From: Bryobacteraceae bacterium
GTDB taxonomy: Bacteria; Acidobacteriota; Terriglobia; Bryobacterales; Bryobacteraceae
Assembly: GCA_025056865.1 (NCBI GenBank)
Contig: JANWVO010000017.1
Span: 1-33,078, forward strand
DNA length: 33,078 nucleotides
Direction of reading: 5' to 3'
Positions 10,663 through 25,406 of the stretch are shown here, piece by piece (the stretch's first letter is position 1; each line of letters starts with the position of its first letter). The position numbers and the translations under genes were made by a program. The notes beneath the pieces were generated by a model. That model ran no database searches. It had not been told where the DNA came from and saw nothing but the letters and a program-made list of their open reading frames with translations.

Positions 10663-11973
10663 TTGTCCACGCAAGAACTTCTCTGCATCGGCCCCGAGTG
10701 CGGCGCGCGTTTCCCCATCGGCGAGGTCATTTACACGTGCCCGCGCTGCCAGTCCCTGCTGGAAGTGTCCGCGCCGGCGCCGCTCGATGTGGAAGCGGCG
10801 CGGCGCGCCTGGCGCGAGCGCCGCTTGTCCGACGCGCCCGAAGACCGCTCCGGCGTCTGGCGCTTCCGCGAGCTGCTGCCGTTCGATGACATGCGGCACA
10901 TCGTCACCCTCGCCGAAGGCAACACCGCCCTGCTGGAAGCGCCGCGGGCGGCGCGTTATGCAGGGCTGGACGCGCTGCTGTTCAAGCACCAGGGCTTCAA
11001 TCCCACGGGCTCGTTCAAGGACAACGGCATGACCGTGGGCGCCTCGCAGGCGCTGCGGCTCGGCATGAAGACCGTGGCGTGCGTCTCCACCGGCAACACG
11101 TCGGCTTCCATGGCCGCCTATGCATCGGCCGCCGGCCTGCTGCCGGTGATCTTCCTGCCCCACGGCAACATCAGCTACGGCAAGCTGGCCCAGGCGCTCG
11201 AATACGGCGCGCTTACCATCCAGGTGGAGGCGAATTTCGACGAAATTCTCCGGCTCGTCCGGGAATTGGCTCCGAAATTGGGAATATACCTGCTGAATTC
11301 GGTCAATCCATTCCGCATCGAGGGCCAGAAGACGATCATGGCGGAGCTGCTCGAGCAGCTCGGCTGGCGCGTGCCGGACTGGGTGGTGCTGCCCGGAGGC
11401 AACCTCGGCAACATCAGCGCCTTCGGCAAGGCCTTCCGCGAACTGCGCAGCCTCGGCTTCATCCCGCGCCTTCCGCGGTTCGCTGTCATCCAGGCCGAGG
11501 GTTCAGCGCCGTTCCATGACTACTTCCGCCGCCGCGGCGAGTTCCACCCGGTGGCGAAGCCGGAAACGCTGGCCACTGCCATCCGCATCGGCGATCCGGT
11601 GAGCTGGCCGAAGGCCATTCAGGTGATCGACGAAACCAACGGCGTGGTGGAGACGGCCACCGAGCAGGAGATCGCCGACGCGAAGGCGGTGATCGGGCAG
11701 TGCGGGATCGGCTGCGAGCCTGCCTCGGCGGCGACGCTGGCGGGCATCCGAAAACTGGCGGCCGCAGGCGTCATCGGCGCGGGCGAACTCGTCGTCGCCG
11801 TGCTCACCGGCCATGTGCTGAAAGATCCCGACTACATCTACCGCTATCACACCGGCCAACTCGAAACGCCCTCGGGCGCGCGCATCGAGCCGCGCTTCGC
11901 CAACCAGCCGGTCACGGCGAGGCCGGACGCCGGAGAAATCGCCGCGCTGCTCGAGCGCTACCATCGCCACTAG
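10663..11973 (+). CDS. thrC: Threonine synthase (paralogue 2, SFKDN type)
   Basis: A 436-residue PLP enzyme. An N-terminal zinc-ribbon (C8, C13, C26, C29) is followed by LAEGNTALLEAP, the PLP lysine K119 in NPTGSFKDNGM, and STGNTSASMAAYASA. The phosphate-binding loop LPGGNLGNISAF and the HTGQLE region come later. It should make threonine and phosphate from O-phospho-L-homoserine, the last step of threonine synthesis. The SFKDN motif is the form usual in true threonine synthases, so I give this copy the symbol. The start must be the TTG at 10663, because it is the only initiation codon before the first zinc-binding cysteine. It shares the strand with rhaM, 35 bases away, without an obvious functional link. 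Confidence 0.9.
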   Translation: MSTQELLCIGPECGARFPIGEVIYTCPRCQSLLEVSAPAPLDVEAARRAWRERRLSDAPEDRSGVWRFRELLPFDDMRHIVTLAEGNTALLEAPRAARYAGLDALLFKHQGFNPTGSFKDNGMTVGASQALRLGMKTVACVSTGNTSASMAAYASAAGLLPVIFLPHGNISYGKLAQALEYGALTIQVEANFDEILRLVRELAPKLGIYLLNSVNPFRIEGQKTIMAELLEQLGWRVPDWVVLPGGNLGNISAFGKAFRELRSLGFIPRLPRFAVIQAEGSAPFHDYFRRRGEFHPVAKPETLATAIRIGDPVSWPKAIQVIDETNGVVETATEQEIADAKAVIGQCGIGCEPASAATLAGIRKLAAAGVIGAGELVVAVLTGHVLKDPDYIYRYHTGQLETPSGARIEPRFANQPVTARPDAGEIAALLERYHRH

Positions 11974-12017
11974 GCCTGTGCCGGGCGGGGCGCAGAGGAA
12001 ACAGACCGTGGAGCTGT

Positions 12018-12857
12018 TCAGGCCTTGTGTTCCCCGCCGGAGAAACGCCGCGGCTCGGGCAGATACTCCACCGTCGGCTGCCTTCTCACGGGCTGCGGGT
12101 AGAGGCTCATCAGCTCGAGGATTTCCGGCGGCATCTCGCAGCTCACCGGCAGGCAGTATTCGCGCGCAGCCTCGTAGGTGATCGGGTGATCGTGGGTCCA
12201 TGTGCCTTCACTGAGCAGGCGCGAAAGCTCCTCGGCCTTGCCATCGGGGCACTTGCCTTTCAGCAGCTCGTGGACGCCCTCGCGGATCTGGTTCATCGCC
12301 TTGCGCGCCTGGTCGGCAAGGATCAGCGTCTCGTCCTTGACCTCCGCAATCGGCTTCTGCTCCACCACTTTGAGGATCGACGCCGCCGGGTATTGGCCGA
12401 GCTGCGGATCCACGGGCCCGAGCACGGCATACTCGCTCATGACGATCTCATCGGCGGCCAGCGCAATCAGCGTTCCGCCCGACATTGCGTAGTGCGGCAC
12501 GAATGCCGTGACCTTGCCCTTGTGCTTGTGCAGTGCGCGGGCGATCTGCATCGAAGCCAGCACCAGCCCGCCCGGCGTGTGGAGGATGATGTCGATCGGA
12601 ACGTCGGGGTCGGTCATGTGGATCGCGCGCAGCACTTCTTCCGAGTCGTTCACGTCGATGTAGCGGAAGACCGGGAAGCCGAGCAGGCTCATCGTCTCCT
12701 GCCGGTGGATGAGGAGGATCACCCGGGACTTGCGGTCTCGTTCGATCTTGGCAATCAGACGCTGCCGCGCCGCTTCCAGCAGCCTCTGCCGCAGCACCGG
12801 CTGAAGCGCGGAAGCCAGAAAGAAAAACCAGATTACGTCGGTGGGTGTCATCGGCAT
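12018..12857 (-). CDS. Membrane-anchored ClpP/SppA-like serine protease (SDH_protease family)
   Basis: A 279-residue protein with an N-terminal transmembrane segment (about 7-22, DVIWFFFLASALQPVL) and a ClpP-fold crotonase-like domain. HTPGGLVLAS (93-102) forms the oxyanion-hole region. S126 in YAMSGGTLIALAAD is the expected nucleophile, and LGPVDPQLGQ is the family's third landmark. These SDH_protease-family proteins are membrane-associated serine peptidases related to signal peptide peptidase SppA. The start codon follows the TAA of the rhomboid gene without a gap (TAAATG), so translation is probably coupled. The two may form a membrane-protein quality-control or processing pair. Substrates are unknown. 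Confidence 0.88.
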   Translation of the reverse strand: MPMTPTDVIWFFFLASALQPVLRQRLLEAARQRLIAKIERDRKSRVILLIHRQETMSLLGFPVFRYIDVNDSEEVLRAIHMTDPDVPIDIILHTPGGLVLASMQIARALHKHKGKVTAFVPHYAMSGGTLIALAADEIVMSEYAVLGPVDPQLGQYPAASILKVVEQKPIAEVKDETLILADQARKAMNQIREGVHELLKGKCPDGKAEELSRLLSEGTWTHDHPITYEAAREYCLPVSCEMPPEILELMSLYPQPVRRQPTVEYLPEPRRFSGGEHKA

Positions 12858-13610
12858 TTATCGCCTCCAGTAACCGGGGGGAAGATAGGGCATTTCCATA
12901 AAATACTCGTCCCCGCGGAGCCTGCGCCAGGAGCCGCGGCGCCGGACAAAGAAGAGATGAAGCACGACACCGGCGGCAAAGCCGCCGACGTGCGCCCACC
13001 ATGCCACTCCGCCTACGTTCTGCGGGCCGGCCAGCGCGAGCGTTCCGCTGAAAAACTGCGAAAGCGCCCAGAAGCCCAGATACGTGACGGCGGGCACTTC
13101 GAAAAAGAGCGGCAGGAAAAAGACCGGAAGCAGGACGATCACGCGCGAGTTCGGGAACATGAAGAAGTACGCGCCCATCACGCCGGCAATGGCGCCGCTC
13201 GCGCCCACCGTGGGGATCGTCGACTCCGGATTCACCCACGTGTGCACCAGGCCGGCGAAGATCCCGCAGGCCAGGTAGAAAAGAACAAAACGAACCGGAC
13301 CCATGCGGTCTTCGACGTTGTCGCCGAAGATCCACAGCGTCCACATGTTGCCGATGATGTGCGTCCAGCCGCCGTGCAGGAACATGCTGGTGAGGAACGG
13401 CCAGTAGTCGTCAGCGGGAAGGCCGAAAATCTGCGCCCATGCCGGATGCGTATACCTCGCAGGCACGATGCCGAACCAGTGAAAAAACTCACGGAGAGCC
13501 GGCTCTGGCATCATCAGCTCGATCAGAAACACGAACGCGTTGGCGAGGATCAGCATCCAGACGGCGATCGGCGGGTGGCGCGAAGGGATGGTATCGCGGA
13601 TCGGCAGCAT
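12858..13610 (-). CDS. Rhomboid-family intramembrane serine protease
   Basis: A 250-residue polytopic protein with about six membrane segments starting near residue 17. Rhomboid landmarks are present: FLHGGWTHIIGNMWTLWIFG with the conserved H and N, the nucleophile S138 in VGASGAIAGVMGAY, and the catalytic H207 in AWWAHVGGFAAG. Rhomboids cleave transmembrane segments of other membrane proteins within the bilayer. The C-terminal tail (about 223-250) is basic and then rich in proline and tyrosine. No Shine-Dalgarno sequence precedes the ATG, but an extended -10 lies 13 bases upstream. Next in the operon, and directly abutting, is the ClpP/SppA-like membrane protease. Confidence 0.92.
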   Translation of the reverse strand: MLPIRDTIPSRHPPIAVWMLILANAFVFLIELMMPEPALREFFHWFGIVPARYTHPAWAQIFGLPADDYWPFLTSMFLHGGWTHIIGNMWTLWIFGDNVEDRMGPVRFVLFYLACGIFAGLVHTWVNPESTIPTVGASGAIAGVMGAYFFMFPNSRVIVLLPVFFLPLFFEVPAVTYLGFWALSQFFSGTLALAGPQNVGGVAWWAHVGGFAAGVVLHLFFVRRRGSWRRLRGDEYFMEMPYLPPGYWRR

Positions 13611-13623
13611 GAGTCAGCCGTTG

Positions 13624-13632
13624 ATTGTATCA
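13624..13632 (-). promoter_or_regulatory. Extended -10 upstream of the rhomboid operon
   Basis: Read on the minus strand, TGATACAAT combines a TGn extension with the hexamer TACAAT, 13 bases before the rhomboid ATG. No good -35 box is seen, as can be the case for extended -10 promoters. The predicted leader is only a few bases long. Confidence 0.35.
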
Positions 13633-13812
13633 GCCCGGCACGGGGTCTATCGCGCAGCCGGGACGAAGTTCAGCCGCGGGATATGCGCCAGGGATTCCTG
13701 CCGGACCGCGTTTCAGGGCGCCCGGAGCGCGGCCTGACGGTGCGCACGGCAATGGCGCAACAGCCCCGTCGGTGCTGCCTCGGATCGCGGCAGAGTCGGA
13801 GTGACGGGCGTC

Positions 13813-13838
13813 TGAAAGCGTCCGGAAGGGCCGGACAC
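13813..13838 (-). terminator. Hairpin just downstream of RNase P RNA
   Basis: On the minus strand GTCCGG and CCGGAC (13831-13836 and 13820-13825) can form a six-base-pair stem with a five-base loop about 10 bases after the RNase P 3' helix, followed by GCTTTCAG. The T content is low, so this is a weak terminator or a processing stem. Confidence 0.3.
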
Positions 13839-13847
13839 GGGCAGGAG

Positions 13848-14270
13848 AAACAGGAGGCCCCGCGGACTGTAAGCCGGTTTCTGGTCCCGGCCCCTGCGGG
13901 CCGGGCGGCAGTCATTCCTCTAGGCCCGCCATTGCTGGCGGGCTCAAGCGACCGACCCGGGAGTCAGGCGGAGCGGGCCACTCCATCCTCCCCTATTTGG
14001 TCTTGCTCCGCGTGGGGTTTGCCCTGCCATTCCGGTTACCCGGAACGCGGTGCGCTCTTACCGCACCTTTTCACCCTTGCCGGCCGCGTTGCCGCGGCAG
14101 GCGGTATGTTTTCTGTGGCACTTTCCGTGAAGCGCGCTTTGAGCGCGCCCCCCCGGCCGTTAGCCGGCACGCTGCCCTGTGGAGACCGGACTTTGCCTCG
14201 GACGCCGGCCGTATCCCCCTCGGGGGACGCGCCGGGCCCGCGACTGCCCGTCCGCGGGGCCTCCTGCTTC
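13848..14270 (-). ncRNA. rnpB: RNase P RNA, bacterial type A
   Basis: The catalytic RNA of RNase P, which trims the 5' ends of tRNA precursors. On the minus strand all the universal blocks appear in order: GAGGCAAAGTCCGG, ACAGGGCAGCGTGCCGGCTA, CACGGAAAGTGCCACAGAAA, AAGGGTGAAAAGGTG and GGTAAGAGCGCACCG. They continue with GCAAACCCCACGCGGAGCAA, CCAAATAGGG, TAGAGGAATGACTGCC and AGAAACCGGCTTA. Helix P1 closes the molecule: 14250-14266 pairs perfectly with 13851-13867 over 17 bases. At about 420 nt it is slightly longer than a typical type A RNA. The exact 5' and 3' ends are estimated from P1. Open frames crossing this interval are not genes. Confidence 0.96.
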
Positions 14271-14401
14271 CATTGTCCCATACGCGCCATCCCGTCCCCG
14301 CGTTACGCGCCGTCACGCCGAAAATCAGGTCTGCATCCCCTGATTGAGATGCAAATCCCTTGCAGGACTTGCGCCCGGCTTGGGCTACCATCAAGAGAGA
14401 A

Positions 14402-16057
14402 ATGACAGAGCAGGGCCCAACCTCGGCTGCCGCCACCCGCTCCCTGGCGGGCGCGCGCGTCTGCTGTCCCGCTCTGACCGGCGTCACGCCGACTACCTGG
14501 TCCGCCCTGCCTGTCGAGGCCCTCGAACGCGCCCCCTCCCGGCTTGCGTGGACGGCTTCCATCTGCGCCTTCCTCACGGTAGCGCTGTTCACGCTCCAGG
14601 CGCACCTGCAACCGGAGATTGCCGTGGTGCAGCGCCAGCCTGCGGTGATCGCCGCCGAAGCGACGCTCATCGCGGTGTCCCTGCTGATCGTCATCGCCTA
14701 CCGGCTCGGCTGGATGAAGCCGTGGTTCAGCGTCTATGCCGGCCTGGGCTTCCAGCTCATGGTGGCTTTCTCCATCGGGCTCTTTGAAACGATCGCGCCG
14801 TGGCCGCCGGACCAGCCCGTGCGCGGGATGTCCAGCCTGGTGGCGTGGATCCTCGCCTCTTCGCTCTTTCTGCCCGCCTCGCCGATGCAGGCGCTGGCCG
14901 GAGCCTTCGGCTCAGCGGCGATGGGGCCGCTTGCTTACGCGATCGTCCGCAACTGGATTCAGGATCCTGGCCTTTCGCCCAGCCGCATCGGAGTGCTTTA
15001 CGTGCCTCCCTTCCTCGTGGCCGGCTGCGCCTGGTGGATGAGCCGGCTGATCTTCCGCATGGAATGCTCGATGCACCACGCCCGCGAGCTCGGCAGCTAC
15101 GAGCTGGAAGAAGTGCTCGGCATCGGCGGCATGGGCGAGGTCTGGCGCGCCAGGCACCGCATGCTGAAGCGGGAAGCGGCAGTGAAGCTGATCCGCGCGG
15201 AAGCGCTGCTGGCGCACACCCAGCGGCAGGCCGACGTGCTGCGCCGCCGCTTCGAGCTGGAAGCCCGCGCCATCGCCTCGCTGACGTCGCCCCACACGGT
15301 CTCGCTGTACGATTTCGGCGTCGACCAGAACGGCAACTTCTATTACGCGATGGAGCTGCTGCGCGGGCTCGACCTCGAACAGCTTGTCAAGCGCTTTGGC
15401 CCGCAGCCTGGCGCGCGCGTCGTGCATATTCTGCGGCAGGCCTGCGAATCCCTCGAAGAAGCGCACTGCGCCGGCATCGTCCACCGCGACATCAAGCCCA
15501 CCAACCTGTTCCTTTGCCGCCTCGGGCTGGAATTTGATTTTGTCAAGCTGCTGGATTTCGGCCTCGCCCGCTGGCGCCTGATGAGCGGCGGCGTGCGCAT
15601 GACGATGGAGAACATCACCACCGGCACGCCCGCCTTCATGGCGCCGGAGCTGGCGCTGGGAGCCAGCGAAGTGGACGGGCGCACGGATCTCTACGGGCTG
15701 GGCTGCGTCGCCTACTGGCTGCTGACCGGCGCGCTTGTCTTTGAAGAGCCGACGCCGACGGCGATGGCGCTGGCGCATGTCCAGAAAGACCCGCCGCCGC
15801 CCTCGCAGCGCACCGAGGTCCGCTTCTCGCCCGAGCTGGAGAGGATCGTGCTCCAGTGCCTCAGCAAGAAGCCCGAAGACCGCCCGGCCAGCGCGCGCCT
15901 GTTGCGGCGGATGCTGGAACAGTGCCCCGAATGCGGCGTCTGGTCGCCGGAGGACGCCGAAGCCTGGTGGCGCACGAACCTGCCGGAGCTGTATGCCGCC
16001 CGGTGCCCCGAGCCGGGCGTGGCGGGGCTTGCGACGCTTCCCGCCCGGAGCCCGTAA
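14402..16057 (+). CDS. Membrane-anchored Ser/Thr protein kinase with N-terminal multi-pass domain
   Basis: A 551-residue protein. Residues about 48-218 hold roughly five or six hydrophobic segments, and the kinase domain follows at about 233-500. Kinase landmarks are the glycine loop LGIGGMGEVW (239-248), the ATP lysine K262 in AVKLI, HRDIKPTN with D363, K365 and N368, and DFG with D385. GTPAFMAPE and the C-terminal RPASARLL complete the fold. It should phosphorylate Ser/Thr residues of cytoplasmic targets from the inner membrane. The usual bacterial Hanks-kinase order is kinase first and membrane segment second; here it is reversed. The ATG has AAGAGAGA just upstream. The stop is immediately followed by the GTG start of the transporter gene, so the two are translationally coupled. 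Confidence 0.92.
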   Translation: MTEQGPTSAAATRSLAGARVCCPALTGVTPTTWSALPVEALERAPSRLAWTASICAFLTVALFTLQAHLQPEIAVVQRQPAVIAAEATLIAVSLLIVIAYRLGWMKPWFSVYAGLGFQLMVAFSIGLFETIAPWPPDQPVRGMSSLVAWILASSLFLPASPMQALAGAFGSAAMGPLAYAIVRNWIQDPGLSPSRIGVLYVPPFLVAGCAWWMSRLIFRMECSMHHARELGSYELEEVLGIGGMGEVWRARHRMLKREAAVKLIRAEALLAHTQRQADVLRRRFELEARAIASLTSPHTVSLYDFGVDQNGNFYYAMELLRGLDLEQLVKRFGPQPGARVVHILRQACESLEEAHCAGIVHRDIKPTNLFLCRLGLEFDFVKLLDFGLARWRLMSGGVRMTMENITTGTPAFMAPELALGASEVDGRTDLYGLGCVAYWLLTGALVFEEPTPTAMALAHVQKDPPPPSQRTEVRFSPELERIVLQCLSKKPEDRPASARLLRRMLEQCPECGVWSPEDAEAWWRTNLPELYAARCPEPGVAGLATLPARSP

Positions 16058-18346
16058 GTGCCAGCATCAGGACAACGCAGCTTCCCTGTCTGGGCGGCCA
16101 TGGCCGCCGCCACGCTGATGATGGCGCACCAGGTGGGCGGCAAGTCCATCCGCGACGCCCTGTTCCTCCAGAGTTTCGGCCCTGAGGCGCTGCCGGCGAT
16201 GGTGATGTCGGCGGCGGTGCTTTCGGTCCTTCTGGGCGTTTTCGGCGCGCGGCTGTTCAGCCGCTTCAGCCCGGCGCGCGCCGTGCCGTGGAGCTTCATC
16301 GCCAGCGGCCTGTTGCAGTGGATGGAATGGCATCTCGTGGAAGCCAGCCCCAGGCTGGGCGCGGTGGCCGTGTATCTGCACATGGTGGCCTTCGCGGCCG
16401 TGCTGCTCTCCAGCTTCTGGCTGCTGCTGAGCGAGGAGATGGACCCGGTGCAGGCGAAGCGGCGCTTCGGCCGCATCGCCGGCGCGGGCACCACCGGCAG
16501 CGTGCTCGGCGGGCTGCTGGCGGCGCGCTGGCCGGATCTCGCCGGCACAGGCAACGAGGCCACGCTGGTGGCAGCGCTTGGCACGATTCACCTGCTTTGC
16601 GGACTCCTGCTGATGCAGGCGCCGCGGCGCCTGAAGACAGGGCCGCCGCAGCCGGAGCCGTGGGTTTCGCCGCGGAAAGTGCTGCGGGCCGCGCCGCATC
16701 TGCGGCATCTGGCCGCGCTGGTCGCCCTGGGCACGGCCACCGCGGCCATCGTGGACTTCCTGTACAAGCGCGCCGCCACGCAGGCCCTCGGCCGCGGCGA
16801 CGCGCTGCTGGAGTTCTTCGCCTACTTCAACACCGGCGTGGCGCTGATCAGCTTCGCGCTCCAGACGCTGGCCAGCCGCCGGGCGCTCGAGAAATTCGGC
16901 GTCGGCACAACCGTCGGCTCGCTGCCCGGCATGGTGGCCGCCGGCAGCCTGGCCGCGCTGGCCGCTCCGCTGTTTCCGGTCATCGCCGGGCTGCGCGCTG
17001 TCGAGGCCGCTCTGCGCGGCTCGTTCTTCCGCGCCGGCTACGAGCTGATGTACACGCCCATCCCGCCGTCGGAGAAGCGGTCCGTCAAGACGGTGATCGA
17101 CGTGGGGTTCGACCGCTTCGGCGACGCGCTCGGCGGAGCCGTCTGCCAGGCGGCGCTCTGGATGCCCGGCGTGCCCATGCCTGGCGTGCTGCTGCTGACC
17201 ACCGCCCTGCTGGCGTTAGTCAACACCTGGGTGGCGCGGCAACTGGACCGGATCTACGTCCAGGTGGTGGAGCGCGGGCTGGTTCACCGCGCCGCCGAAG
17301 TGCTGATCTCCGGCGCCGGAGACTGGACGCTGGACCGCGAGCTGCTGGAGTCGCGCTATGCCGATGCGGCCGCGGTGCAGCCGGCGGCTCCGGCGCCGCG
17401 TCCCGCGCGGCCAGCGGTAACGCCAGCACCTGCCGTAATCGATGACGCCGCTTACTGCCTGGCCGAGCTGCGCTCCGGGCAGGCGGAACGCGTGCTCCGC
17501 GTGCTGGAAGCGCAACGTCCCCTCGACCCCGTGCTGGTGCCCGCCGTCATCGACCTGCTGGCCTGGAACGCCGTCTATCCGGCCGCGCGCGAATCGCTCC
17601 TCAGCGTCCGCACTCCGATCGCCGGCCAGTTGGGCGACCGGCTCGCCGACCCCCGCTGCGACTTCGCCATCCGCCGCCGCATCCCCGCGCTTCTTCTGGC
17701 GCTCGGGGACCGGCGCGCGGTGGAAGCGCTGCTGGCCGGGCTCTCCGATGAGCGCTTCGAAGTGCGCTTCCGCTCCGCGCGCGCCCTCGACGAGCTCGTC
17801 TGCCGCAAGCCGGAGCTCGCCCCGCCGTCCGGCGTTATCTACGACGCCATCGAACGCGAGCTTTCCGTCGACCGCAACATCTGGCGCAGCCGCCGCCTGC
17901 TGGACGGGCAGGCCCCGCTCGAACAGATCCCGCATCTCGATGAGATCCTGCGCGAGCGCGCTGACCGCAGCCTCGAACACCTGTTCAGCCTGCTTTCGCT
18001 CGTGCTCCCGCGTGAGCCGCTGAAGGCCGCCTTCCGCTCGCTGCACGCCGACGACGAAGCCCTGCGCGCGTTGGCGCTCGAATATCTGGACGGCGTCCTG
18101 CCGCGCGGCCTCGGCACCCGGCTCCGCGCGCTTCTTCAACAGCCGCCCGGAGCAGAGTCCCACAATGCGGAACAGGTCGTGGACCAGTTGCTCCGCTCCC
18201 ACGCAAGCATCGAAATGTCGCTCAGGCGGAAGCTGGAGGCGGAGCAGGCGCCGCAGAGCTCCGCCGCCGGTACTCCCTCGCCAGATACGCCACCAGCAGG
18301 AGCCACACCACGGTCAGCGCCAGATTCAGAAACGCAAAGCCGGTGA
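16058..18346 (+). CDS. NTT/TLC-type nucleotide transporter-like membrane protein with HEAT-like C-terminal domain
   Basis: A 762-residue protein. The first 410 residues form a polytopic membrane domain of the ATP/ADP-translocase (NTT, TLC) type. Its signature YTPIPPSEKRSVKTVID plus DRFGD (residues 332-356) parallels YKAKAAID plus QRAGD in the opposing gene. Residues about 450-720 are soluble and helical, with repeated leucine/alanine-rich pairs such as RRAVEALLAGLSDERFEVR, typical of HEAT-like repeats. NTT proteins exchange or import nucleotides, but the substrate here is unknown and transport itself is not proven. It begins with GTG directly after the kinase stop. The final 41 residues are low complexity and read across the end of the opposite gene, so the functional end may be earlier. 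Confidence 0.78.
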   Translation: MPASGQRSFPVWAAMAAATLMMAHQVGGKSIRDALFLQSFGPEALPAMVMSAAVLSVLLGVFGARLFSRFSPARAVPWSFIASGLLQWMEWHLVEASPRLGAVAVYLHMVAFAAVLLSSFWLLLSEEMDPVQAKRRFGRIAGAGTTGSVLGGLLAARWPDLAGTGNEATLVAALGTIHLLCGLLLMQAPRRLKTGPPQPEPWVSPRKVLRAAPHLRHLAALVALGTATAAIVDFLYKRAATQALGRGDALLEFFAYFNTGVALISFALQTLASRRALEKFGVGTTVGSLPGMVAAGSLAALAAPLFPVIAGLRAVEAALRGSFFRAGYELMYTPIPPSEKRSVKTVIDVGFDRFGDALGGAVCQAALWMPGVPMPGVLLLTTALLALVNTWVARQLDRIYVQVVERGLVHRAAEVLISGAGDWTLDRELLESRYADAAAVQPAAPAPRPARPAVTPAPAVIDDAAYCLAELRSGQAERVLRVLEAQRPLDPVLVPAVIDLLAWNAVYPAARESLLSVRTPIAGQLGDRLADPRCDFAIRRRIPALLLALGDRRAVEALLAGLSDERFEVRFRSARALDELVCRKPELAPPSGVIYDAIERELSVDRNIWRSRRLLDGQAPLEQIPHLDEILRERADRSLEHLFSLLSLVLPREPLKAAFRSLHADDEALRALALEYLDGVLPRGLGTRLRALLQQPPGAESHNAEQVVDQLLRSHASIEMSLRRKLEAEQAPQSSAAGTPSPDTPPAGATPRSAPDSETQSR

Positions 18347-19616
18347 TTCCCAGCGCAAATACGTTCGTCCCCGCCCAGACGATGCCGGCCTGCGCCACGT
18401 CGCCCGCGCGTTGGAAGAACGTGTCGATCGCCGCCTTGGCCTTGTACTTCACCTCGCGTGGCGTCGGCAGGAACAGCGCCTGGCGGGCGGTGTTCTGGAT
18501 CGAGTAGTCGGCGCTGTTTTCCACGATCTTCAGCAGCCGGATCACGCCCAGCACCGGCGCTGCCACCAGCAGCGAATAGCCCGTGAATGCAATCAGCGGC
18601 AGGATGAACAGCGTGCCGCCCACGCCGATGTAGCGGAAGAGCCGCGAAACCACGAACGCCTGGAGGAGAAAGCTCAGCGTGTTCACCCAGAAGAAATACT
18701 CGCCGAAAAATCCGCCAATGAAGCGCTGCCTCGCCTCCGCAGCCTCGGGACCGGCGCCGGCCAGCCGGCCCGCCTGCTCGGTGACGAGGCTCGACAGCAG
18801 GAACTCGCCCGAGGTGTTCACCACGTTCAGCAGCAGCACCAGCAACGCGATCATCACCAGGTAGCGGTCCTGAAAGACCAGCAGGAAGCCGTCGCCGGGC
18901 CGGAGAGGCTGCTGGCGCGCCAGCAGTTGCGCCGCGCCGGCGCGCTCGCTGATCTTGCGGTCTGCCAGCACGCTGATCAGCGCGCAGACGGCCAGCAGCG
19001 CGCCGCCGGCTGCCAGCAGCGGCAACGCGCCAAGCTGCTTCACCGCATCGGCCGCCGCGCGGGCGCCCGCCACAGCGCCAATCGAGGCGCCGACGCCGAT
19101 CAGCGGGAACAGCCGCCTGCCCTGCGGCTCCGTATACAGGTCATTGGCGAAGGCCCAGAACTGCGAAATGGCGAAGACGTTGAAGATGCCCACCCAAAGG
19201 TAGAACGGAATGCCGATGCGGTGGCCAGCCGCCGCCAGAGCATGAAACACGGCCAGGTTGGCCGCAAAGAACAGCGACACGCCGCTGAGCAGCCACACCC
19301 GCCTGACCTTGGAGGCCACCCAGCTATACACCGGGATCACCAGGAGCAGCAGCAGCGCCTGTCCGGCCGAAAGATACGTCTTCACCACCGCGCCCTGTTC
19401 GGTCAGGATCAGCGGCTCGCGCGCCGTCTTCAGCAGGTAGTAAGCCGACAGCAGCAGGAAGATGTTGGCGAACAGCAGCAGCGCGCCAGCGCCTTCGCCG
19501 CCGCGCACGTCGGCAAAGATGCTGAGGAAACGGTCCAGACGGCTCGCAGGCCTCGGATCGACCGCCCGGAAGACCGGGAAAGAGGCATAGGACGGGTGCT
19601 CGGGGACGTTCACCAT
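18222..19616 (-). CDS. NTT/TLC-family (ATP/ADP translocase-like) transporter
   Basis: A 464-residue inner-membrane protein with about 12 hydrophobic segments, close to the family's usual size. Family features include SAYYLLKTAREPLIL (57-71), SQFWAFANDLYT (151-162), RLFPLIGVGASIGAVAG (168-184) and YKAKAAIDTFFQRAGD (391-406). Characterised relatives exchange ATP for ADP or carry other nucleotides; many free-living bacteria carry uncharacterised members. I chose the ATG giving MVNVPEHP, which overlaps the preceding gene's stop by 7 bases, rather than an upstream in-frame start. It is the last gene of a three-gene operon with a secreted kinase-like protein and an outer-membrane barrel. Its 3' end overlaps the convergent paralogue by 125 bases, which covers its last membrane segment. 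Confidence 0.85.
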   Translation of the reverse strand: MVNVPEHPSYASFPVFRAVDPRPASRLDRFLSIFADVRGGEGAGALLLFANIFLLLSAYYLLKTAREPLILTEQGAVVKTYLSAGQALLLLLVIPVYSWVASKVRRVWLLSGVSLFFAANLAVFHALAAAGHRIGIPFYLWVGIFNVFAISQFWAFANDLYTEPQGRRLFPLIGVGASIGAVAGARAAADAVKQLGALPLLAAGGALLAVCALISVLADRKISERAGAAQLLARQQPLRPGDGFLLVFQDRYLVMIALLVLLLNVVNTSGEFLLSSLVTEQAGRLAGAGPEAAEARQRFIGGFFGEYFFWVNTLSFLLQAFVVSRLFRYIGVGGTLFILPLIAFTGYSLLVAAPVLGVIRLLKIVENSADYSIQNTARQALFLPTPREVKYKAKAAIDTFFQRAGDVAQAGIVWAGTNVFALGITGFAFLNLALTVVWLLLVAYLAREYRRRSSAAPAPPPASA

Positions 19617-21175
19617 GTGCGCTCGATTCCCACCACCTGAAGCCCGCGCAGCCACACAGAAACCCTCTGCGAGGGCCGCGCCGCCGCCCGGATCTCCGCC
19701 ATCCGGTACGGACCGCCGCGCTCCGGCACCTTCGGCCCGCGCCCGATCTCCGCTCCAGCCTGCACCCTCTGATTATCGAACTCGCGCCACACGATGTCAT
19801 AAGGCGCCGGCGACTCCATCCCGTGCCTGGCCGCAAGGTCCTCGAAGACCAGCTCGCCGTTCCGCACCTCGAAGCGGTCGATCGGCAGCACCTTGCGGAA
19901 GTAAGCGCGGCCGATCTTGTCGCGGCGCTCGATCAGGCAACGCACCAGGTAATCTTCGGCCCGCGGATCCGACAACCGGCCCGTGCGCACCACCGCGCGG
20001 ATCTCCTCGTCAGTAAAGTGCATCACCTGCTTCGCGCCCCAGAATTCATCGTCTGGCAGGCGGTTGAGCAGCGCCGGATTGGGGTATTCCGGCAGCCATT
20101 TTTCCGGATCAAACACCTTCGATTCGAACAGGCCGATCGAGGGATATCTGGGATAATGCGCCCGGGCCCAATACGGAACTGCAAGCCCCAGTGTCGCCAT
20201 CTGAATGGCCGACTCCCGCCAGTCGAACAGGTAAGCGCCGGAGCGGGGGCTGTTCGGCTTGTCGCTCCCGCTGCCCAAAGTCGAACCGAAGTCGAGCAGA
20301 TGGTGGCGGATGAAGCTCTTTCCGTCGCGCGTGATGAGCGTGTCCAGCGTGTTGATGGCGCGGGAATCGTCGTGGTTCAGCCACGCGAAGAAAACATGGC
20401 AGGCGCGCAGCTCGCGGCGGTGCTCGTGCGGCACTGTGTCGTTGGGATCGTCGGCGCGCGTCCCGAACCAGCGGAACGGGCCGAGCGGCTGCCCTTCCAG
20501 CGCCAGGCTCGCCACGGCCCGGTAGCGGCCGTCCCCGCCCCGGGGCGCCTTCAGCAGCAGCTCGGTCAGGTGGCGCGGCGTGAAAGGCCGCTTCTGGCCG
20601 TGGCGGTTGATGAACGTCAGCCGGTCCTCGATGATCAGGTCCCGGGGGTGGAATTCCACGATGTATTCATCGGCGACATGGAAGCCGAGAGCGTGGAAAA
20701 ACCGCGCCGAAATCACTTCCGCCGCGGTCATCATTTCCGGGTTGGATTTCGGGTCGAGCTTGATGAAAAATCGCCTCTTCGTGGCGTCAATCACGGTGAA
20801 GCCCGGCGTGATTCCTTCGCCCTTGGCCGCCACCACCGTCCACGGGAACACTGGCGGAGCGGTGCCGTCCGGCCCCCGGGCGAGCTCTTCCAGCGTCATG
20901 CGCCGCCAGTAGTGGCGGCGCACGTACCAGGCGCCGTCCATCGGGTCGCCCAGCGTGTTGACGTTTTTCGCGCGGACGGGCTCGCCCGCTCGCGGCTGCT
21001 TTTCGCCGGGCGTGGCCAGCACGTGCCAGAAAAGGTCGTACCAGTCGCTCAGTTTCCGGCGCGCGGGCTTGCCGGCGTCGAGCGGCGGCGGCTCGGCCAC
21101 CAGCGGATCGTCCGGATAGAACTTCTGCGCCGGAGCCAGCAGCGGCAGGGCCACGAGCAGCGCGAGCGTCTTCAT
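19610..21175 (-). CDS. Exported HipA/PI3K-like kinase-fold protein (function unknown)
   Basis: A 521-residue protein with a short signal peptide (MKTLALLVALPLLAPAQ). I do not recognise a named family, but the residue pattern is that of a HipA/PI3K/FAM20-type kinase. FFIKLDP supplies K139 and AAEVISARFF supplies E153. NHDDSRAINTLD supplies D270-x4-N275, the spacing of HipA D309/N314, and HHLLDFGSTLG supplies D295 as the metal-binding aspartate. Motif assignment is direct from the sequence; kinase activity is an inference. If active it would work outside the cytoplasm. The gene starts 5 bases after the outer-membrane barrel stop and overlaps the transporter start by 7 bases, so all three are co-expressed. 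CotH-like or FAM20-like secreted kinases are alternative relatives. Confidence 0.75.
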   Translation of the reverse strand: MKTLALLVALPLLAPAQKFYPDDPLVAEPPPLDAGKPARRKLSDWYDLFWHVLATPGEKQPRAGEPVRAKNVNTLGDPMDGAWYVRRHYWRRMTLEELARGPDGTAPPVFPWTVVAAKGEGITPGFTVIDATKRRFFIKLDPKSNPEMMTAAEVISARFFHALGFHVADEYIVEFHPRDLIIEDRLTFINRHGQKRPFTPRHLTELLLKAPRGGDGRYRAVASLALEGQPLGPFRWFGTRADDPNDTVPHEHRRELRACHVFFAWLNHDDSRAINTLDTLITRDGKSFIRHHLLDFGSTLGSGSDKPNSPRSGAYLFDWRESAIQMATLGLAVPYWARAHYPRYPSIGLFESKVFDPEKWLPEYPNPALLNRLPDDEFWGAKQVMHFTDEEIRAVVRTGRLSDPRAEDYLVRCLIERRDKIGRAYFRKVLPIDRFEVRNGELVFEDLAARHGMESPAPYDIVWREFDNQRVQAGAEIGRGPKVPERGGPYRMAEIRAAARPSQRVSVWLRGLQVVGIERTW

Positions 21176-21180
21176 GCGGG

Positions 21181-22455
21181 TCACTGATAGGGCTGCGTCG
21201 ACGACGTGCCGAGCGGGCGCGCCGGAAACACGTCGTTGAACTTGAACCACGCCTGGAACCCTTCCCGGCTGAACCCGAAGTCCATCCGCAGAAAGGTCTG
21301 GTTCCGGGCGTTGAACCGGAAGCCGAAGCCATAGCTCTTTTCGAGCCGGCTGAAATTGAGCTGCCCGCGCCGGGGGAACACTTTCCCGGCATCGGCGAAA
21401 ATCGCCATGTCGAGGCCGGCGAATACTTCCCAGCGGTACTCGGCGTTCAGCAGCATGGAATTGCGGTCGCGGAAGCGGAAGGGGCGGAAACCCCGCAGGT
21501 CGTCCGGGCCGCCCAGCCAAGGTTGCAGGTAGAACGGCACGGTCTCGCCGGCGTGCGGGTCCGTCAGCAGCGTGCGTCCCCGCAACGCGATCACGCGCCG
21601 CTGGTTGAAAAACGGAATGTACTGGCGGAATTCCGTCTCCAGCAGGTTGAAGCCATAACCAAGGCCGCGCCGGTCGTCGTAGCGGTTGTACTGGAACAGA
21701 TAGAAACCGCCCGCGCGGGGCCCGGCCGGATTGTCGAGATAATTCACGCGCAAAAAGGACCCGTAACGGTGGAAATTCGTCTGCCGGTCGATGCCCGGCA
21801 TCTCCTGCGGCGTGTAAAGCTGGTCGGCGCTGGCGAACCGCCGGTCGCGCCCCGCCCCGGCGTTGATCCACAGCAGGCCGGTGCTGCCGCCCAGCAGCAG
21901 CCCGCGCACCGGCGACACGCCGAGACTCCAGTCAGCGGAATTGTCATCCAGCAGGAAATTGCTGCGCCCGGTCTTCCGCGAATCCGGGCCGGGACCGTAA
22001 AACTGGATCTTCGGGTAGTAGTGCGACATCGAGAGCATCTCCGCCTCGATGCGCCCGCCGAGCCAGTCCTTCGAGCGCAGCCGCAGGATCCCGCGCTGGT
22101 AGCCGCGCGTGGAGATCTGCCAGGCGGCCTGCGTCTCCAGCTTGCCGTTCAGCAGATCGTCGCGGAAATACTCCGGCCCCAGGCCGAAGCCGCCCTGCGT
22201 GATCATGCCGCCGAGCTTGACGCGCAGCCCGTTGTACCCATAGCTGATCCGCTCCGGGATCTTCTTCTCTTTGAGCAGCCGGATGCGCTCCTCCCACCGG
22301 CTGACGCGCTCCGGCCTGAGCTGCGCGGCGCGCTCGCGGCGCTCCTTCTGGATCAGCTCCTCCCGCGTCGCTTCCTGCGCCGGGACAGACAACAGGCCCA
22401 TTGCGAGCAGGCAGGCGATGGAGGGAATGCGGCAAGCCCTCAAGCCTCTGATCAT
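21181..22455 (-). CDS. Omp85/BamA-type outer-membrane beta-barrel protein without POTRA domains
   Basis: A 424-residue protein with a signal peptide (about 1-26). A charged, probably helical segment follows (28-70), then about 350 residues of alternating beta-strand sequence. The Omp85 barrel signature is clear: GGPDDLRGFRPFRFRDRN (315-332) with RGF at 321-323, then NAEYRWEVF and IFADAGKV. No POTRA repeats fit in the N terminus, unlike BamA or FhaC. Family members insert or translocate proteins across the outer membrane, and short forms also act as passenger-linked barrels (patatin-like proteins). The likely start is the ATG giving MIRGLRAC; one four codons upstream (22465-22467) is possible. 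It is the first gene of the barrel, kinase-like and transporter operon. Confidence 0.85.
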   Translation of the reverse strand: MIRGLRACRIPSIACLLAMGLLSVPAQEATREELIQKERRERAAQLRPERVSRWEERIRLLKEKKIPERISYGYNGLRVKLGGMITQGGFGLGPEYFRDDLLNGKLETQAAWQISTRGYQRGILRLRSKDWLGGRIEAEMLSMSHYYPKIQFYGPGPDSRKTGRSNFLLDDNSADWSLGVSPVRGLLLGGSTGLLWINAGAGRDRRFASADQLYTPQEMPGIDRQTNFHRYGSFLRVNYLDNPAGPRAGGFYLFQYNRYDDRRGLGYGFNLLETEFRQYIPFFNQRRVIALRGRTLLTDPHAGETVPFYLQPWLGGPDDLRGFRPFRFRDRNSMLLNAEYRWEVFAGLDMAIFADAGKVFPRRGQLNFSRLEKSYGFGFRFNARNQTFLRMDFGFSREGFQAWFKFNDVFPARPLGTSSTQPYQ

Positions 22456-22759: not shown

Positions 22760-23179
22760 TCAGGCCAGTTCCGAGCCGCGGAAGAACCAGGCCACTTCGA
22801 AGGCCGCCGTTTCCGGCGCGTCGGAGCCGTGGCTCGCGTTGCGGCCGATGTCGGTTCCATACAGCGCGCGTACGGTGCCCGGCGCCGCCTTCTTCGGATC
22901 CGTGGCGCCCATCACCTCGCGCCACCTGGCAATGGCGTCTTCGCGCTCCAGCGCCATCAGAATCACCGGCCCTTCCGTCATGAAGGCGACCAGTTCCTCA
23001 AAGAACGGCTTGCCGCGGTGGACGGCGTAAAAGCCTTCGGCCTCCGCGCGCGTCAGCTTCTGCATCCGCATCGCCAGAATGCGGAAGCCCGCCTCTTCAA
23101 TCATGGAGATGATCTTGCCCGCATGGCCGGCGGCCACGGCGTCAGGCTTGATGATGGCAAGAGTTCGTTCGACAGGCAT
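22760..23179 (-). CDS. ndk: Nucleoside diphosphate kinase
   Basis: A 139-residue protein matching Ndk over its full length. [11 protein letters not shown] carries K11, and the phospho-histidine H117 lies in the signature [10 protein letters not shown]. It transfers the gamma-phosphate from ATP to nucleoside diphosphates in the cytoplasm and so balances NTP and dNTP pools. The ATG has a strong purine-rich ribosome-binding site (GGAAGGAAA) about 6 bases upstream. It lies 130 bases downstream of sucD on the same strand, a common neighbourhood because succinyl-CoA synthetase produces the ATP or GTP that Ndk equilibrates. It also lies just beside the nucleotide-transporter operon. Confidence 0.97.
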
Positions 23180-23309: not shown

Positions 23310-24185
23310 CTACAGCTTCAGCGCCTCCTTCGCGCGCGCGCCAATCTCGGCGGGCGTCTTGCAGACGATGATGCCCGCAGCTTCCATCGCTGCCATCTTG
23401 TCGCTCGCCTTGCCGGAGCCGCCGCTGATGATGGCGCCTGCGTGGCCCATGCGGCGCCCTGGCGGCGCGGTCTGCCCCGCAACGAAGCCGATCACCGGCT
23501 TCCTCACGTGCTCCTTCACATACGCCGCCGCTTCTTCCTCGGCCGTGCCGCCAATCTCGCCGATCATGATGATCGCCTCGGTCTGCGGGTCTTCATTGAA
23601 AAGCCGCAGCGCGTCCACGTGCGTGGTACCGATGATCGGATCGCCGCCGATGCCGATGCACGTGCTCTGCCCGATGCCGAGCGCCGTCAGTTGGCCCACG
23701 GCTTCATAAGTCAGGGTGCCGGAGCGCGAGACCACGCCCACCGGGCCGGGCTTGTGAATGTGGCCCGGCATGATGCCGATCTTGCATTCGCCCGGCGTGA
23801 TGATGCCCGGGCAGTTCGGCCCGATCAGCCGCGTGCCGGGACGGTCCTTGAGAAACCGCCACGCCCGCACCATGTCCAGCGCCGGGATGCCCTCGGTGAT
23901 GCACACCACCAGCCGGATGCCGGCATCGGCCGCCTCCATGATGGCGTCCGCCGCGAAAGCGGGCGGCACGAAGATGACGCTCGCGTCCGCGCCCGTGGCG
24001 CGGACGGCTTCGGCCACGGTATCGAAAACCGGGCGGTCGAGATGCGTCGTGCCGCCTTTGCCCGGCGTCACCCCGCCGACGATATTCGTTCCGTAGGCGA
24101 TGCACTGCTGCGCGTGGAAAGTGGCCTCCCTGCCAGTGAAGCCCTGCACGAGCACGCGCGTGTTCCTGTTGACCAGAATGCTCAT
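23310..24185 (-). CDS. sucD: Succinyl-CoA synthetase alpha subunit
   Basis: A 291-residue alpha subunit of the TCA-cycle enzyme that converts succinyl-CoA, NDP and phosphate to succinate, CoA and NTP. The N-terminal CoA-binding Rossmann domain includes [12 protein letters not shown] and [21 protein letters not shown] and SRSGTLTYE follow, and the phosphorylated histidine is H248 in [13 protein letters not shown]. Its length is normal. It begins 14 bases after the sucC stop, so the two subunits are made from one operon. Nothing unusual is seen. Confidence 0.97.
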
Positions 24186-24199
24186 GGTTCGCTCTTCCC

Positions 24200-25363
24200 T
24201 TATGCCTGGCTGGCGAGCGCGACGACTTTCTCCGCCGCGTCCTTCATTCCATCGGCGACGACGAAGTTCAGGCCGGACTCGCGCAGGATGCGCCGGCCCT
24301 CCTCGACGTTGGTTCCTTCCATGCGGATGACCAGCGGCAGGCGGAAGTCCAGCTCGCGCGCGGCGGCGACGACGCCCGCGGCGAGCGTGTCGCAGCGCAG
24401 GATGCCGCCGAAGATGTTGATCAGCACCGCCTTCACATGCGGGTCCGACATCAGGATGCGGAAAGCGTTGGTGATCTGCTCCTGGTTGGCGCCGCCGCCC
24501 ACATCAAGGAAATTGGCCGGATTGCCGCCAGCGTACTTGATGATGTCCATCGTCGCCATGGCAAGGCCGGCGCCGTTCACCATGCAGCCCACGTTGCCAT
24601 CCAGCTTGATGTAGTTCAGGCCGTATCGGGAAGCCTCGACCTCCAGCGGATCCTCTTCATGAATGTCCCGCAGCGCGGCAATGTCGGGGTGGCGGTAGAG
24701 CGCGTTGTCGTCAAAGTTGAATTTTGCATCCAGCGCCACTACGCGCTGATCCTCGGTCACCACCAGCGGGTTGATTTCCGCCAGCGACGCGTCCGTCTCC
24801 ACCCACGCGCGCGCGAGGGCCTGGAAAAGCTTCGCCGCCGCGCCCGCCGCAGCGCCCTTCAGCCCGATGCCGTACGCAAGCCGCCTTGCCTGGAAAGGCA
24901 GCAGCCCGTCGCCGGGATCGAAGGCCTGCTTCAGGATCAGCTCGGGCGACTTCGCCGCCACCTCTTCGATCTCCATGCCGCCAGCGGCGGAGGCCATCAG
25001 CACCGGCTTGCCCTGCGAGCGGTCCAGCACGATGCCCGCATACAGCTCCTGCGTAATCGGCAGCGTCTCCTCGACCAGCACGCGGCGCACGAGCCTGCCT
25101 TCGGTGCCCGTCTGATGCGTCACCAGCGTCATGCCGAGAATCTGCGAAGCAACCGCTTCAGCCTCCTCCGGCGTGGCGGCCAGCTTCACGCCGCCGCCTT
25201 TTCCGCGGCCTCCCGCGTGGATCTGCGCCTTCACCACCACGCGCGAGCCGATTTCTTCGGCGATGGCGCGGGCCTCGGCCGGCGTCTCCGCCACGCGGCC
25301 CCGCGGGATGGGCACGCCGTAGCGGGCAAGGATCTGCTTGGCCTGATACTCGTGAATTTTCAT
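24200..25363 (-). CDS. sucC: Succinyl-CoA synthetase beta subunit
   Basis: A 387-residue beta subunit that provides the nucleotide-binding ATP-grasp domain. It begins with the classic [18 protein letters not shown]. Other landmarks are [61 protein letters not shown] and [10 protein letters not shown]. With SucD it forms the TCA-cycle enzyme that makes ATP or GTP by substrate-level phosphorylation. It is the first gene of the sucC-sucD block and diverges from trpD, with 51 bases between start codons. Confidence 0.97.
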
Positions 25364-25406
25364 AGGATTGGGCTTGTGGTAGGCTCGGAGAAAAGCCCCG
25401 CATTTC

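Follow-up and report, generated by a model that had tools for sequence, protein, structure and literature searches.

A conserved envelope gene module of Acidobacteriota: a predicted exported kinase-fold protein paired with a POTRA-less Omp85 barrel, often accompanied by an NTT carrier

The locus and its barrel and kinase-like proteins

We analysed a 33,078-nucleotide stretch of a Bryobacteraceae genome (contig JANWVO010000017.1 of assembly GCA_025056865.1; the window, below), in which three minus-strand genes form a compact block. The first (21181-22455) encodes a 424-residue Omp85-superfamily barrel protein that lacks POTRA domains and has a signal-peptide-like N-terminus and an LRGF motif. 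The second (19610-21175) encodes a 521-residue protein, predicted to be exported and to adopt a Fam20C/CotH/HipA-like kinase fold with a C-terminal beta domain at about residues 432-520; we refer to it as the kinase-like protein. The third (18222-19616, with its ATG at 19616) encodes a 464-residue nucleotide transporter (NTT) of the TLC ATP/ADP transporter family. A 5-base gap separates the barrel gene from the kinase-like gene, and the last 7 bases of the kinase-like gene overlap the start of the NTT gene. This operon-like packing had been described in a preliminary description made from the sequence alone, and we reproduced its coordinates. A 7-base overlap was also the commonest spacing of kinase-like and NTT genes elsewhere, found in 10 of the 33 same-strand pairs listed, with start codons chosen automatically. 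The comparisons reported here establish a real, conserved envelope module of a barrel and a predicted exported kinase-fold protein, often with an NTT.

The barrel protein matched the Pfam Omp85 family (PF01103, E 8.3e-11, 42.4 bits against a cut-off of 24). Its AlphaFold2 model (pLDDT 89.8) has 16 strands preceded by a helical stretch at residues 31-72, and Foldseek returned BamA and TamA barrels with a best E of 1.8e-12; among the matches listed, all 50 were BamA or TamA chains. R321 and G322 were invariant in 60 sequences, and the LRGF found here is a form of (V/I/L)RG(F/Y), which we take to be the Omp85 barrel motif. No POTRA domain was matched by Pfam or NCBIfam or seen in the model, the matches covering the C-terminal barrel alone. 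As judged from the motif and the 16 predicted strands, the protein belongs to the Omp85 superfamily, and it lacks the POTRA domains that characterize BamA, TamA and TpsB. The POTRA-less outer-membrane barrel first proposed for this gene is thus borne out by family match and model.

The kinase-like protein could not be placed in a named sequence family. Neither the 521-residue protein nor the longer open frame gave a Pfam match at E 1, NCBIfam was also silent, and the curated Pfam cut-offs of the Fam20, CotH and HipA_2 families were not reached. Weak Pfam matches occurred in 9 of 58 relatives, the best being to HipA_2 (E 0.0033), and the Pfam listing for these 58 contained no Fam20 or CotH family. 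Against PDB chains the sequence alone gave no match at E 10, and the profile gave two chance-level matches (E 0.26 and 0.99). By contrast, hhalign against eight HipA_2 proteins from related genomes gave an E of 4.3e-7 (probability 92.7), with K139 facing a Lys and D270 facing an Asp in the first row of the alignment.

An AlphaFold2 model built from the 58 relatives (alignment A4) reached a mean pLDDT of 92.6 and a pTM of 0.92. Foldseek against the PDB ranked Fam20C first (E 2.1e-4), with CtkA of H. pylori (2.8e-4) and CotH of B. cereus (8e-4) next; ranks 1-19 were all Fam20, CtkA or CotH chains (E 2.1e-4 to 2.4e-3), and Rio2 and HipT stood lower. The nearest structures were mostly protein kinases, judged by title, and a non-kinase fold was not supported. 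A comparison with HipA, CotH and FAM20C, the proteins considered in the preliminary description, therefore leads to kinases. The likeness is nevertheless weak overall, with a query-normalised TM of about 0.3 for the best matches and 14 matches at E <=0.001, which weighs against the envelope phosphorylation reading given below. Because the global TM is about 0.3, we conclude from the model that the protein shares a fold with Fam20C, CtkA and CotH and is not a close relative of any of them.

The catalytic set comprises the lysine K139, an HxDxxxxN motif with D270 and N275, and the metal-binding D295. In an alignment of 122 kinase-like sequences, which includes fragments and a few repeats between sets, K139 was kept in 112, D/E153 in 115, H268 in 116, D270 in 118, N275 in 119 and D295 in 121. 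These residues make up HxDxxxxN...DFG, a pattern typical of active kinases. The catalytic residues originally noticed in the window are thus a property of the family, and kinase activity of the protein is likely, to judge from its motifs and model. A crude hydropathy rule found a hydrophobic N-terminal segment in 70 of 77 kinase-like relatives and 69 of 72 barrel relatives, compared with 3 of 78 internal control segments, in agreement with the signal peptide assigned at the outset. The N-terminus suggests that the kinase-like protein is exported, in which case it would presumably reside in the periplasm or at the cell surface.

We also considered that this kinase-fold enzyme has a non-protein target or performs other chemistry, such as glycan or lipid phosphorylation in the envelope or AMPylation; the barrel would then deliver or display what the enzyme makes. 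Versatile chemistry is known in this superfamily: Fam20B phosphorylates xylose and SelO AMPylates. No family in Pfam or NCBIfam names a substrate, and both a conserved DDxND...H stretch at residues 242-250 and the extra C-terminal beta domain would be compatible with a different reaction. However, the canonical HxDxxxxN and DFG-type motif suits ordinary phosphotransfer, and the preponderance of protein kinases among the closest structures also speaks for it. We regard other chemistry as unlikely.

Barrel and kinase-like genes across the Acidobacteriota

Among 61 genomes, comprising the window's own and those of 60 relatives, 19 carry the kinase-like gene. All 20 wide loci, which are the 25 matches minus the window itself and four fragments in genomes G035 and G039, place it next to a barrel of the window barrel's family. 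A scan of one genome per species returned 404 kinase-like relatives, and our counts rest on the best 79 of these 404 loci. By record title these 79 are from Acidobacteriota, except for L046 (DYJN01000038.1), which is labelled Arcobacter sp.; this label looks wrong. Of the 77 loci that could be judged, 76 have the barrel immediately upstream of the kinase-like gene. The exception, L098, is a second, tandem kinase-like copy, with the barrel before the first copy. Pairing was likewise found in 91 of 93 loci of the set used for the kinase tree, the exceptions being this tandem copy and L061, where the contig begins just before the gene. Counting by open frames gave lower adjacency (25/40 and 52/79); this is an undercount due to long stop-to-stop frames, and aligned matches were preferred. 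Tandem duplicates of the kinase-like gene were seen in L097 and L098, and of the barrel gene in L093.

Genome counts agreed with the locus counts. Among 297 genomes of the phylum, 47 had a strong kinase match (E <=1e-38, a few of these matches being truncated or split), with 10 genomes that matched the profile over about 80 residues alone excluded. A barrel match was present in all 47 of these and in 79 of the 297 overall. For 11 barrels without a kinase, two kinase profiles found nothing in the barrel frames, and no kinase was apparent by eye in the downstream open reading frames (ORFs) of 6 of them. Barrel, kinase-like gene and NTT occur in the same order in Bryobacterales bacterium F-183 (L057), whose genome is not labelled as metagenome-assembled. 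Locus counts, genome counts and the tree set together exclude a chance association of the three genes. The search for synteny across Acidobacteriota therefore shows conserved barrel-kinase order, and it is very likely that the barrel is a partner of the kinase-like protein. The three-gene unit of the preliminary description stands in its first two genes, whose order is near universal; the NTT is not constant, and the robust unit is barrel plus kinase.

No fourth universal partner emerged when neighbour frames were clustered, none occurring in more than 33 of 119 loci. Three clusters present in 116-119 of the 119 loci were taken as the kinase, the barrel and their antisense or chained frames; the next covered 33, 29, 25, 18, 17 and 14 loci, and the 33-locus cluster reads like a Ser/Thr kinase. 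The kinase-like protein had no match in a plasmid collection. Remains of a broken kinase-like gene were seen at G035:C8:77568-78211, with an NTT match nearby at 80489.

A sister family of kinase-like proteins, short and likewise predicted to be exported (alignment A8), carries VK, E, DxKxxNN and DxG motifs and has open frames mostly of 330-420 residues (L185:6083-7057, L186, L187, L188, L190, L191 and L198). It was found in 35 of the 297 genomes at E <=1e-60, five weak matches being left out. In L185 and L198 the short genes overlap or adjoin POTRA-less Omp85 barrels. In L200 (genome G246) a kinase-like domain of this sister family is fused to a barrel in one 821-residue frame, with the exported kinase-like domain first and the POTRA-less Omp85 barrel last (L200:2509-4695, on G246:C19). 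This is the sole listed place where a short-kinase match spans both parts, and the fusion speaks for kinase and barrel being physically linked.

The NTT carrier and the flanking genes

The NTT matched PF03219 (TLC) at E 1.1e-12, with 47.9 bits against a cut-off of 21, and this model matched all 30 NTTs of alignment A6 at E <=0.01. A profile of NTT relatives matched the solved NTT1 chains 9j3n and 9j3j at E 4.9e-19 and 9.4e-14; we take 9j3n to be a chlamydial-type NTT1 and 9j3j the plant NTT1. The assignment to the ATP/ADP-translocase family made in the preliminary description is thereby confirmed.

NTT genes were strongly associated with the kinase-like gene. By the A6 profile (E <=1e-20) an NTT was present in 43 of the 47 kinase genomes compared with 68 of 250 others (Fisher p 4e-17, relatedness not corrected), and by the Pfam model in 42 of 47 compared with 50 of 250. 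Among the 61 closer genomes the Pfam counts were 18 of 19 versus 3 of 42, and the single miss, G029, has an NTT by the A6 profile. In the window's own family they were 14 of 15, G035 with its broken gene included, versus 2 of 22. These p-values ignore kinship among genomes, and when HipA_2 was compared with NTT in the 61 genomes as a control, the two were associated as well (odds ratio 12, p 0.006), which indicates that lineage effects are present.

Proximity was examined in the same way. In 27 of 72 loci the kinase-like gene was followed within 600 bases by an NTT-family gene of the same orientation. Where both flanks extended for 5 kb or more, the nearest NTT-family gene was no more than 5 kb away in 31 of 48 loci of the named set and 16 of 28 of the phylum set, two sets that share some contigs; the rough chance rate is 1% per locus, assuming three NTT genes in 4.5 Mb. 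Where the nearest NTT could be assigned (63 loci), it was downstream on the same strand in 35, upstream on the opposite strand in 16, upstream on the same strand in 7 and downstream on the opposite strand in 5. The NTT is thus a frequent, but not constant, partner of the kinase-like gene.

The conserved gene order, the predicted folds, the catalytic residues, the NTT co-occurrence and the kinase-barrel fusion of the sister family can be read together as an envelope phosphorylation module, in which an exported kinase works with a POTRA-less Omp85 barrel and, where present, the NTT exchanges nucleotides. Our confidence in this reading is about evenly balanced, and several observations weigh against it. 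At the chosen threshold no NTT was found in four kinase genomes (G080, G083, G123 and G228), although G228 has a weaker match (6e-19). No same-strand NTT lies directly downstream in 45 of the 72 loci, and among the fully flanked loci 17 of the 48 and 12 of the 28 lack one within 5 kb. In the kinase tree the label of near or far NTT is hardly clustered, requiring at least 23 changes (shuffled mean 25.3), 14 of them forced by well supported branches; the proportion of near-NTT loci in this set, 64 of 94, is biased upward because loci with short flanks were kept if an NTT was seen. It seems that the association arose or vanished repeatedly, or that the 4.5 kb cut partly determines it. NTTs of the operon-type subfamily (at least 300 bits with the A6 profile) were found in 29 genomes, and 12 of these lack the kinase. 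Finally, 26 of the 28 genomes with the short kinase-like family and without the window-type kinase have no NTT. An NTT was found in 9 of all 35 short-kinase genomes, a number not significantly depleted (p 0.14); the window-type kinase is present too in 7 of the 9. The 2 of 28 that remain indicate that exported kinase-like proteins in this phylum are not generally accompanied by an NTT.

The residues of the carrier count on the same side. Four charged residues, K155, E245, E385 and K527, are important in AtNTT1 (PMC3306366 and PMC4256464), and the window NTT retains one of them at most. The alignment was read by hand, and a single numbering offset, 84, accounts for all four positions. E245 corresponds to G143, E385 to N267 and K527 to a gap, while K155 corresponds to S83 or, in the alignment with 9j3n, to K79. 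PMC4256464 states that the substrate range of NTTs is unpredictable from sequence, and it describes two microsporidian NTTs with different residues at three of these sites. By its family the window NTT likely transports nucleotides; by residue this is unproven, and the direction and substrate of transport are presumed. The functional tie between kinase and carrier drawn in the preliminary description accordingly stands as a statistical association, whereas feeding of ATP by the NTT is not shown in view of these residues and of the 26 short-kinase genomes without an NTT. Such a supply remains plausible.

A rival explanation is that barrel and exported kinase form the complete unit and that the kinase draws on ATP that is leaked or extracellular. 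The NTT would then cluster with them for other reasons, such as shared regulation or common membership of a larger island for envelope or energy functions, to which the Ser/Thr kinase and NTT-HEAT-like carrier described below would also belong. Barrel-kinase pairing is near universal and NTT pairing is not, NTTs of the same subfamily occur in genomes without the kinase, short-kinase genomes mostly do without an NTT, and growing bacteria release ATP (PMC3882102). Against this stand the strong co-occurrence and the proximity of the NTT in several gene orders, as well as the overlap of the kinase and NTT reading frames. We consider this explanation somewhat unlikely.

Two genes on the convergent strand were missed in the preliminary description, whose three-gene block is otherwise retained. 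A Ser/Thr protein kinase gene (14360-16057, plus strand; PF00069 at 1.2e-37, kinase domain at residues 247-515) has an N-terminal half that looks hydrophobic on reading the sequence. It is followed by a gene (16058-18346, plus strand, 762 residues) for a second, divergent NTT-like carrier, NTT2, with a HEAT-like C-terminal part. The matches of NTT2 are all below cut-off (PF03219 0.042 and HEAT_2 0.0046 in Pfam, TIGR00769 0.002 in NCBIfam), and it resembles the NTT by tblastn. According to PMC5381601, NTT-HEAT fusions are known and of unknown function. NTT2 occurs in four of the five genomes of the window's genus; barrel, kinase-like gene, NTT and NTT2 are all present in these four and all absent from G003, a 98% complete draft in which a gap is possible. 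NTT2 and the Ser/Thr kinase gene point towards the operon as a pair in a number of loci, among them L150 and L168 from other families of the phylum. The 3' ends of NTT2 and NTT overlap by 125 bases in the window, and the convergent order recurs in relatives.

Beyond this pair lie a rhomboid-type protease gene (12858-13610, minus), beside the Ser/Thr kinase gene, and an adjoining SDH_protease-type gene (12018-12857, minus). DNA homologous to this region also borders the block in G001 and G004. An ORF at 11700-14405 on the plus strand (901 residues) was rejected as a further member, being a spurious frame opposite these two genes. Upstream of the operon, all on the minus strand, are NDK (22760-23179), sucD (23310-24185) and sucC (24200-25375). 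None of the three was found by tblastn in the stretches fetched around the block in the congeners G001, G002 and G004, and this absence ruled out NDK and sucCD as members of the system. The DNA upstream of the block in G001 sits elsewhere in G000 and G004.

The presence of NDK in the window bears on a further possibility, nucleotide salvage, in which nucleotides enter through the barrel, are bound or processed by the exported protein and are then imported by the NTT. NTTs of intracellular parasites do import nucleotides, according to PMC5381601. However, the barrel is Omp85-like and not of a porin family, barrel and kinase occur without a same-strand downstream NTT in most of the loci counted above, and tblastn did not find NDK in the stretches fetched around the block in the three congeners. 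We regard salvage as improbable.

A putative envelope phosphorylation module and known systems

Under the envelope phosphorylation reading, the kinase-like protein would leave the cytoplasm by means of its signal peptide and fold as a kinase of the Fam20C/CotH/HipA type. The barrel might anchor it at the outer membrane, carry it to the surface, or be assembled or modified together with it. Where present, the NTT would exchange nucleotides across the inner membrane, either bringing ATP to the kinase or removing product. A fuller and less probable version is a self-contained phosphorylation compartment, in which a Fam20C-like kinase in the periplasm or at the surface is bound to its own Omp85 barrel and fed by a dedicated inner-membrane exchanger. 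No description of a module of this make-up was found in the literature, subscription papers and preprints lying outside the search.

Fam20C is the Golgi casein kinase and CotH a spore-coat kinase, so that both belong to the kinases of the secretory pathway or the spore coat. With CtkA, they gave the best Foldseek matches and have the same broad fold as the kinase-like protein; identity in the structural alignments is about 10%, and there is no Pfam match to either family. Unlike Fam20C and CotH, the kinase-like protein has the conserved DDxND...H stretch, the C-terminal beta domain and a near-universal barrel neighbour. HipA_2 (PF20613) shows profile-profile homology with the catalytic Lys and Asp aligned, but the eight aligned HipA_2 proteins are shorter (about 260-280 residues) and six of them have no evident signal peptide. 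By the tests made, the protein lies outside the named Fam20, CotH and HipA_2 families; by analogy, the module may work like the secretory-pathway kinases.

In proteins of the PlpD type an enzyme part is joined to an Omp85 barrel. The kinase-like protein would join such enzymes coupled to Omp85 barrels, and the L200 fusion shares the PlpD layout of an exported enzyme tied to a barrel; PlpD itself is named in PMC4104836. The window system differs in that the enzyme has a kinase fold, is usually encoded by a separate neighbouring gene and comes without POTRA domains. The window barrel itself resembles the 'noNterm' Omp85 group of Heinz and Lithgow 2014 (PMC4104836), which has 16 strands, LRGF and no POTRA; unlike that group it is paired with a kinase, and the main text of that paper does not contain the word.

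The window NTT belongs to the same family as the NTTs of free-living bacteria (PMC5381601), a paper in whose main text the word kinase is likewise absent. It differs from known ATP/ADP carriers in the loss of at least three of the four AtNTT1 charged residues and in its genomic tie to an exported kinase, one phylum-wide gene cluster linking that kinase to a nucleotide carrier. If the compartment reading is true, it gives the NTT carriers of free-living bacteria a role, and it parallels the secretory kinases of the Golgi and endoplasmic reticulum (ER) together with their ATP exchangers. SLC35B1/AXER, the ER ATP/ADP exchanger (PMC6113206, PMC12267056), offers an analogy in mode of working only, that of a nucleotide exchanger feeding a compartment unable to make ATP; its function has been tested experimentally, whereas the window NTT is known from its sequence.

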